Positions 19,128-20,745 of a DNA stretch of 23,293 bases are shown piece by piece. The stretch's first letter is position 1. The number at the start of each line of letters is the position of its first letter. The position numbers and the translations under genes were made by a program. Location: positions 1 through 23,293 of the IMG/VR virus record IMGVR_UViG_3300032087_001098, one strand, 5' to 3'. The stretch is from a virus. The notes below the pieces were generated by a model. The model was not told the origin of the DNA. It ran no database searches and worked only from the letters and a program-made list of their open reading frames with translations.

Positions 19128-19877
19128 ATGGCTTATTCAGGCACACAAACCTTTAATCTTTCGATTGAGGAAATAATAGAAGAGGCATACGAAAGATGTC
19201 AATTAGAAACTCGTAGTGGTTATGATTTAAAAACTGCTAGACGATCTATGAATTTGATGTTAGCAGAGTGGGCAAATCGTGGTTTAAATTTATGGACCAT
19301 AACGTATGGCACACAAACATTAACTGCTGGCACAAACTTTTATGCAATTGATCAAAATGTTGTAGATATAATAGATGCTGTTGTAACAACTACAACTGGC
19401 GCAACTTCTAATTTAGAGGGCGATAGTAGCACTACAGATGTTACTATGAATAGAATATCTAGAACTGAATTTATAAATTTAAGTAAAAAAGAAAATTCAT
19501 CAACAGGTGACGCAAGACCAACACAATTTGCTTTGGTTCCTGGCACAGTCACAACTGGTGGATCAACTACTAGTGGTAGACCAGCAAACGACATGACTTT
19601 GTTTTTGTATCCTAGCCCAGATAAAGCATATATATTTAAATATTTTTATCTTGCTAGAATAGCAGATGCAGGGGATTACACAAATAACGCTGATGTACCT
19701 TTCTATTTTCTTCCTTGTTTAACTGCAGGATTAGCTTATTATATAAGTTTAAAAAGAGCACCAATGTTAAGTGCAAATTTAAAAGCGGTGTATGATGAAG
19801 AATTTAAACGTGCTAGCGAAAATGATAGAGAAAGAGTTTCTTTTAGAATTGAACCGGCACGGGCGTACACACCATAG
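19128..19877 (+). CDS. P22 gp4-like tail accessory/head completion protein
   Basis: The 249-residue protein begins with the helical signature of this adaptor family: 'SIEEIIEEAYERCQLETRSG' then 'LKTARRSMNLMLAEWANRGL' and 'LWTITYGTQTLTAG', the same plan as P22 gp4 ('A-x-x-x-(C/L)G ... LNxML-x-x-W-x-x-x-GLxLW'). In P22, gp4 seals the portal and forms the first ring of the short tail. The second half is beta-rich with a helical end ('SANLKAVYDEEFKRASENDR'). It is in the correct place in the neck cluster. The call is from the pattern of residues only. Confidence 0.75.
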   Translation: MAYSGTQTFNLSIEEIIEEAYERCQLETRSGYDLKTARRSMNLMLAEWANRGLNLWTITYGTQTLTAGTNFYAIDQNVVDIIDAVVTTTTGATSNLEGDSSTTDVTMNRISRTEFINLSKKENSSTGDARPTQFALVPGTVTTGGSTTSGRPANDMTLFLYPSPDKAYIFKYFYLARIADAGDYTNNADVPFYFLPCLTAGLAYYISLKRAPMLSANLKAVYDEEFKRASENDRERVSFRIEPARAYTP

Positions 19878-19885
19878 GAGGTAAT

Positions 19886-19996
19886 ATGCCAATATGTAAA
19901 CATTGTGACCATGAATGTCATTGTAGTAACGGCGGCTCATGCTGCGGTGGACAATGTAAATGTGGGAACTGCGAATGTCAAAAGGAGGACAAATGA
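19886..19996 (+). CDS. 36-residue metallothionein-like peptide
   Basis: The peptide MPICKHCDHECHCSNGGSCC, then GGQCKCGNCECQKEDK, has ten Cys (4, 7, 11, 13, 19, 20, 24, 26, 29, 31) and three His (6, 9, 12) in 36 residues, with CxxC, CxC and CC steps and no aromatic residue. This is the composition of metallothioneins, which bind clusters of Zn, Cd or Cu through thiolates; ten Cys plus His could hold three or four metal ions. A perfect AGGAGG stands a few bases before the ATG. The stop overlaps the next start (ATGA), and AAAGGAGG near its end serves the next gene, so it is well set in the operon. Metal binding and its purpose (metal supply, detoxification, redox control or a virion part) are inference. 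Confidence 0.85.
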   Translation: MPICKHCDHECHCSNGGSCCGGQCKCGNCECQKEDK

Positions 19997-20235
19997 GCAA
20001 TAAAAACTGGAACAGTCAAACTGCTAACCCTATGGGTGGTGATAAAACTGGAATAAAATTTGGTAGAGGTCAAATAAATATTCCTGCCCCTGTAGAAGCT
20101 GCTGCTATAACTACAAAAGGTATTGCACCAGCAAAAGGTAAAGCACAAGATATTACTGTAGAAAAAGGAAAAGTATCTGGTACCATGCAAAGCATGGGCG
20201 CTGCTAAAAAAGGCGGCAGTTATACTTGGAGTTAA
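19993..20235 (+). CDS. 80-residue protein, unknown function
   Basis: The start at 19993 has AAAGGAGG five to twelve bases ahead and overlaps the preceding stop; an in-frame start at 19960 lies inside the metallothionein-like gene and has no support. The protein (MSNKNWNSQTANPMGGDKTG...) is Lys/Gly/Ala-rich, with no hydrophobic helix. It reads like a disordered linker with two beta-type segments ('INIPAPVEAAAITTKG', 'AQDITVEKGKVSG') and ends KKGGSYTWS. Tail or neck context; function not recognised. Confidence 0.75.
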   Translation: MSNKNWNSQTANPMGGDKTGIKFGRGQINIPAPVEAAAITTKGIAPAKGKAQDITVEKGKVSGTMQSMGAAKKGGSYTWS

Positions 20236-20238
20236 TTA

Positions 20239-20745
20239 ATGTCTTACGCAACAGGTAAATACGCAAAATTTATTTCTGACCGTAGTGGTATGGAATATCC
20301 ATACAAAGAAATGGTCGTGGAATGGAATGGAGCACGTGTTCACAAAAGTGAGTTTGAACCTAAAACACCACAGGACAGACCAAATAAGCACGCACCTGAT
20401 GCAATAGCATTACAATTTCCAAGACCAGCAAGAGAAGAACCAGCAACAGAAAGATTGTTACCTAGAAATGCTTTTACTCATCCAGCAGGAGAAAGTTTTA
20501 TAAGAGTTTTTGAACCAGGACATCGTAGATCAACAGGAGATACAGTTAGATTTAGAAATGTAACATCAGCAGGAACTTCTTTTGATGTAACAAATCAAGT
20601 TGATACCGCAAACAGCGCAACTGGTAACACCATAACAAAAATAGATGATGATTTTTATAGTTTTAGTTTTGGGGTAGCACCTGTTACAGATCTTATTTTT
20701 GGTGGAAAGCTAGCATCATCTGGTCCAGTAACGGTGAGTAACTAA
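20239..20745 (+). CDS. 168-residue neck/tail-associated protein
   Basis: The N-terminal segment 'YAKFISDRSGMEYPYKEMVV', then 'EWNGARVHKSEFEPKTPQ', is a motif I remember from short-tailed and other cyanophage-like genomes close to neck genes. There is no known activity. From about residue 80 to the end it is beta-rich ('SFIRVFEPGHRRSTGDTVRF' and 'SFDVTNQV'), like small collar or tail-attachment domains. GGAG precedes the ATG by about nine bases. The stop overlaps the next start by TAATG. Confidence 0.78.
   Translation: MSYATGKYAKFISDRSGMEYPYKEMVVEWNGARVHKSEFEPKTPQDRPNKHAPDAIALQFPRPAREEPATERLLPRNAFTHPAGESFIRVFEPGHRRSTGDTVRFRNVTSAGTSFDVTNQVDTANSATGNTITKIDDDFYSFSFGVAPVTDLIFGGKLASSGPVTVSN

Follow-up and report, generated by a model that had tools for sequence, protein, structure and literature searches.

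The window spans an entire virus record (23,293 bases) and carries a gene of 36 codons whose product is probably a phage metallothionein (at a probability of roughly 0.55), buffering Zn2+/Cu+ in the cytoplasm of the infected cell and forming one branch of a marine-phage superfamily. The open reading frame itself is real and under selection. A metallothionein reading had been put forward in the preliminary description, with emphasis on the structural genes around the frame. The reading is well supported at the level of sequence, through invariant Cys, Cys/His exchange at a ligand position, the near-complete lack of aromatics and the best profile matches, whereas the structural-gene emphasis is not.

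The gene and its conservation in the neck cluster

Terminase, portal, capsid, adaptor and tail genes were found in the window. Its portal shares ~49-50% identity with the portals of pelagiphages HTVC023P and HTVC027P, so the window represents an uncultured relative of the HTVC023P/HTVC027P group, and a SAR11 host is likely. The placement in a neck cluster was borne out by a Pam1-type adaptor homologue and the capsid gene upstream and by tail genes downstream (Table 1). Identity of the adaptor to its annotated Pam1-type counterpart in phage DSL-LC04 is 45%, and to the "portal-adaptor" of Pag-Yong1 32%. Scans of the window for Rfam families and tRNAs gave no hits.

Table 1. Features around the Cys-rich gene of the window
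Feature	Position	Strand	Basis
Adaptor (head-tail connector) gene, 249 aa, directly upstream	19128..19877	+	Homology to Pam1-type adaptors
Shine-Dalgarno AGGAGG of the metallothionein-like gene	19876..19881	+	Sequence; GGAGG before the start in 57/64 orthologous slots
Metallothionein-like gene, 36 aa, 10 Cys and 3 His	19886..19996	+	Translation; 64/64 clade slots; dN/dS 0.08
ATGA start/stop overlap of the peptide gene and the next gene	19993..19996	+	Sequence; 53/64 slots
Next gene, 80 aa from ATG 19993	19993..20235	+	Sequence; conserved in syntenic loci
168-aa gene, anchor of the syntenic slot	20239..20745	+	phrog_28581
Tail/virion structural protein, 232 aa	20745..21443	+	phrog_10775 tail protein, phrog_2941 virion structural protein

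Translation of the frame yields MPICKHCDHECHCSNGGSCCGGQCKCGNCECQKEDK (36 aa) and confirms the Cys and His counts given earlier, with Cys at positions 4, 7, 11, 13, 19, 20, 24, 26, 29 and 31 (28% of the residues) and His at 6, 9 and 12. CxC, CxxC and CC spacings are all present, and the peptide agrees with metallothioneins in general size and Cys content (<10 kDa) as well as in lacking F, W and Y. Only M1, P2 and I3 could contribute to a hydrophobic core, and the core around a structural metal site that marks zinc fingers and zinc ribbons is missing from the window-clade peptide, though members of the wider family with longer loops may have one. The strong ribosome site and the gene overlap described at the outset are likewise present: AGGAGG ends 4 bases short of the ATG, and the stop codon TGA (19994-19996) overlaps the next start. 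By this anatomy, the peptide would be translated from a strong ribosome site within a late operon and coupled to its neighbours. The 80-aa gene that follows has its own AGGAGG at 19983-19988 and no PHROG match.

Relatives were drawn from IMG/VR by the two flanking genes, the adaptor and the 168-aa gene, and not by the peptide itself, which gave 74 distinct slots. A Cys-rich peptide was found in all 64 slots whose adaptor is >=79% identical to that of the window, and in none of the 10 with a distant adaptor (<=38% identity). The 64 filled slots comprise 41 long forms (CCGGQC; 10-11 Cys), 4 intermediate forms and 19 short forms (8-9 Cys), and 63 of the 64 peptides are free of F, W and Y. The 25 distinct long-form variants found through their neighbours show all ten Cys and two His unchanged, with a dN/dS of ~0.08 and with most Cys codons switching between TGT and TGC; a failure of the Cys positions to be conserved in homologues, named beforehand as evidence against the proposal, was thus looked for and not seen. 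With pattern-found cores added, the 75 distinct cores among the matches listed give the same picture (dN/dS 0.07), with Cys and His at the last ligand in a ratio of 54:21. Invariant Cys as candidate metal ligands are a mark of metallothioneins, and the Cys/His alternation at the last position appears to be a typical metal-ligand exchange.

On the adaptor tree, at least 6-7 swaps between the long and short forms were counted, but every slot of the clade stays filled, which points to functional replacement. Loci L048 and L049 have identical adaptor proteins followed by a short and a long form, respectively, a recent swap at one locus. That the frame is open by chance and functionless was suggested by its short length and nothing else; a frame with >=10 Cys per 36 aa arose 0.01 times per window in 200 Markov-resampled windows. 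This explanation is refuted by purifying selection, and the 64/64 synteny and the conserved ribosome site and overlap speak against it as well.

Relatives in other marine phages

The window gene would be one branch of an apparently undescribed superfamily with the motif CxxC[GDN]HxCHC...CxCxxCx[C/H]. The search by Cys spacing proposed earlier did recover relatives, in that the long-form pattern occurs in at least 119 stretches of IMG/VR, with the adaptor absent from 29 contexts among the long-form matches listed. A second pattern, in which only the N-terminal half CxxCGHxCHC was fixed and the CHCS form excluded, gave at least 120 matches, all small ORFs among the matches listed. Of 107 distinct ORFs among these listed matches, 106 contain 4-6 further Cys downstream and a C-terminal CxxCx[C/H], the sole exception being cut by a contig end; the last ligand is Cys or His at 87:19 in this wider family among the matches listed. 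The window-clade profile found 103 of the 120 listed family ORFs at E<=10 versus 2 of 600 shuffled sequences, and at E 0.01 it found 31 ORFs, all of the family among the matches listed. Reciprocally, a profile without window-clade members ranked the window ORF first in the six-frame translation of the window (E=0.001), so that this small ORF combines both Cys halves with a reciprocal profile match. Since 30-45 Cys-rich residues make homology uncertain, the main support for the superfamily comes from the motif's independent second half and from the shuffled controls.

Members were found in the neck cluster of the window, the terminase region of HMO-2011-type phages (terminase 65% identical to that of HTVC033P), the replication region of HTVC023P-type phages and the baseplate region of T4-like phages, where baseplate wedge genes are among the neighbours. 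Another adaptor-free context among the matches listed is that of phages with a phrog_284 exonuclease. Relatives elsewhere thus adjoin DNA polymerase, terminase, lysis-region or baseplate genes among the matches listed, and the structural-gene setting, once taken as a clue to function, loses its weight. A gene annotated as PurM or ferredoxin adjoins some members, with its closest isolate homologues in HTVC023P and HTVC027P. Proteins of phrog_3704 (e.g. L406 3843-4493 and HTVC023P gp44) are annotated as PurM, ferredoxin or hypothetical in isolates, and their genes adjoin the Cys-rich gene in ~30 of 120 loci among the matches listed. Variation in length was also observed: in the HMO-2011-type relatives L182, L130 and L201 the Cys-rich part is preceded by an N-terminal extension with RYGW[HT]L at its end, two Cys-rich copies lie ~1 kb apart in L182, and L131, L165, L183 and L223 have a C-terminal extension ending in DFDPDFSLTEH or similar, which at least partly overlaps the next gene in another frame.

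In cultured phages, Mosig_00110 of Pelagibacter phage Mosig (QOI69074.1; MEYCKNCGHECHCGSACKQEVTNEFGEKYEIECCKQCRCDTPVNK) and AGE60383.1 of HTVC008M were placed in the superfamily by the broader profile A2 (E 3e-7 and 3e-6, respectively). Both are annotated as hypothetical and lie just upstream of baseplate genes, and no naming or study of either was found in the open-access literature. They have 45 and 40 aa and share CxxCGH near the N-terminus with the window peptide, but differ from it in their baseplate-region location, a longer middle loop and fewer Cys, clearly so in AGE60383.1, which has SHC where CHC is expected. In both T4-like pelagiphages, the Cys-rich gene is followed at a distance of two or three genes by one for a glycine-rich protein of 99-100 aa (L459 3386-3688, Mosig_00108; L472 2316-2615) that looks like a candidate PAAR spike tip. 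HTVC023P (MN698239.1, L255 ~29070-29170) has an unannotated Cys-rich frame directly after gp44 (CFECHHDCHCDKICPKCSCYTC, E 0.001), conserved in one relative (L259, ~3600). The frame after gp44 reads KNKTFCFECHHDCHCDKICPKCSCYTCNN, with no clear start codon; because gp44 and the Cys-rich frame share sequence at the end of gp44, read in different frames, a frameshift fusion of the two is possible. A further unannotated member lies just before the capsid gene of KT997847. Altogether the wider profile found members in 4 of 14 isolate phages, while the window-clade profile alone found none in 9, and a tblastn search of isolate phages with the 36-aa peptide gave no match, perhaps because BLAST masks such sequence. 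The expectation that similar genes may be widely missed fits the unannotated frames of HTVC023P and KT997847, but the genes of Mosig and HTVC008M are annotated as hypothetical.

Two candidates were set aside. Mycobacterium phage Suigeneris gp81 was dropped as it lacks CHC, and the single match among 84,980 species of GTDB, in Streptomyces, is a long low-complexity frame judged to be chance; this check of cellular genomes used one exact pattern and would miss other forms.

Likeness to metallothioneins and alternative explanations

Metallothioneins have been described in animals, plants, fungi and certain bacteria. Profile A1, built from 25 family members, was run against 177,635 distinct PDB sequences, and its five best matches were all metallothioneins: that of Neurospora crassa (E=0.036, the best), mammalian beta domains (E 0.044 to 1.7) and an MT-1A fusion. 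Such matches show likeness and not descent, being weak (E ~0.04) and strongly biased by composition (27 bits). The mammalian beta domain (MT1/MT2, PDB 1dft, 2mrt) and the N. crassa protein (1m0j) have CxCxxxGSC...CxxxCxCxxCxC in common with the phage peptide, are equally free of aromatics and fall on the same scale of 25-36 aa, and 1dft also has the CSxGGSC loop. Of seven consecutive Cys gaps, six have the same length as in the mammalian beta domain, and only 0.9% of permutations of these gaps match it equally well. The phage peptide differs in that CC replaces CxC at one place and in its extra N-terminal CxxCxH, its three His and its phage origin, and the likeness is too weak for common descent to be claimed. 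Eukaryotic metallothionein families of Pfam (PF12749, PF02067, PF02068) matched weakly, with a best E of 0.14-0.69 and one or two members each. The bacterial family SmtA/BmtA (PF02069) matched none of the 25 members at E<=10, and no NCBIfam or PHROG family matched the peptide family. Like SmtA, BmtA and PflQ2, the peptide is small with ~9-10 Cys plus His, but the bacterial proteins contain a GATA-type zinc-finger fold (PMC10612145), for whose core the short phage peptide has no residues. AlphaFold2 gave no confident fold (pLDDT 66.7), as would be expected for a metal-dependent peptide, and the result counts as neutral.

The broader profile A2 matched no metallothionein in PDB; a zinc-ribbon protein came out best (E=2.5), and a zinc-knuckle fold is therefore conceivable for the CxxCGHxCHC half. 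The peptide might accordingly be a small zinc-binding adaptor, knuckle- or treble-clef-like, for a host or phage macromolecule, e.g. in host takeover, with the metal as structural glue. CxxCGH does resemble zinc-ribbon knuckles, a zinc ribbon of an RNA polymerase subunit was matched, though not significantly, and several relatives have short terminal extras (RYGWHL, FDPDFSLTEH) or longer loops. With 28% Cys and next to nothing to build a hydrophobic core in the window-clade peptide, and with the whole SNGGSCCGGQ loop dispensable in the short form while the slot is still kept, this explanation is unlikely.

Somewhat less probable again is a role as metallochaperone for loading a phage metalloprotein, such as tail or spike proteins or Fe/Zn enzymes, during assembly. 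It would suit a window gene set between virion genes and a T4-like pelagiphage gene two or three genes before the PAAR-like spike candidate and gp25, and iron-uptake genes rise together with zur and irr in SAR11 infected by HTVC027P (PMC12753301). Between phage groups, however, the neighbours are entirely different (terminase, DNA polymerase, adaptor, baseplate), which leaves the peptide gene without a link to any single client protein. A metal-binding component of the virion neck, as the gene's place immediately behind the adaptor gene and its joint translation with the following gene might suggest, is highly improbable: relatives lie outside virion gene clusters in many phages, and since distant relatives of the same adaptor lack the peptide gene, a neck can be built without it.

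Proposed role and meaning for marine phages

As a metallothionein, the peptide would take its fold from metal-thiolate clusters, there being almost no hydrophobic residues for another core. A load of 3-4 Zn2+ or Cd2+ per chain, or more Cu+, is predicted by analogy with the 9-Cys beta domain and with SmtA; 3-4 Zn were measured in PflQ2MT and SmtA (PMC10612145). It would most likely act as a cytoplasmic buffer and sink for Zn2+/Cu+ and as a thiol redox buffer, taking up metal that would be released or mis-handled during turnover of host proteins and nucleic acids and synthesis of phage zinc proteins. A general function in the infected cell fits better than a structural one, because the superfamily sits in different modules of different phages; for the same variation in genomic location, a dedicated neck or virion role and one fixed client are disfavoured, and a role in the virion or in assembly is no more than one of several possibilities. 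Ribosomes are a store of zinc. Some pelagiphage-infected SAR11 cells have no detectable ribosomes (PMC11066056), and this loss, together with the zur/irr response, makes metal handling plausible in pelagiphage infection, to which the peptide gene may be linked.

No phage-encoded metallothionein family was found in the open-access literature, Pfam, NCBIfam or PHROGs; the "metallothionein" of a paper on phage Ab31 is a gene of the bacterial chromosome, not of the phage. Cys-rich genes of this kind are common in marine phages related to SAR11 phages, across unrelated phage groups, and genes of 30-45 codons are missed or left unnamed by annotation. Tailed phages of the ocean may, at slightly less than an even chance, share a widespread and undescribed metallothionein superfamily that is exchanged between unrelated groups and controls the Zn/Cu pool for takeover. 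Since a member is carried by two cultured pelagiphages, whose host is the ocean's most abundant bacterium, trace-metal management by phages in the metal-poor cells of the ocean is directly testable.
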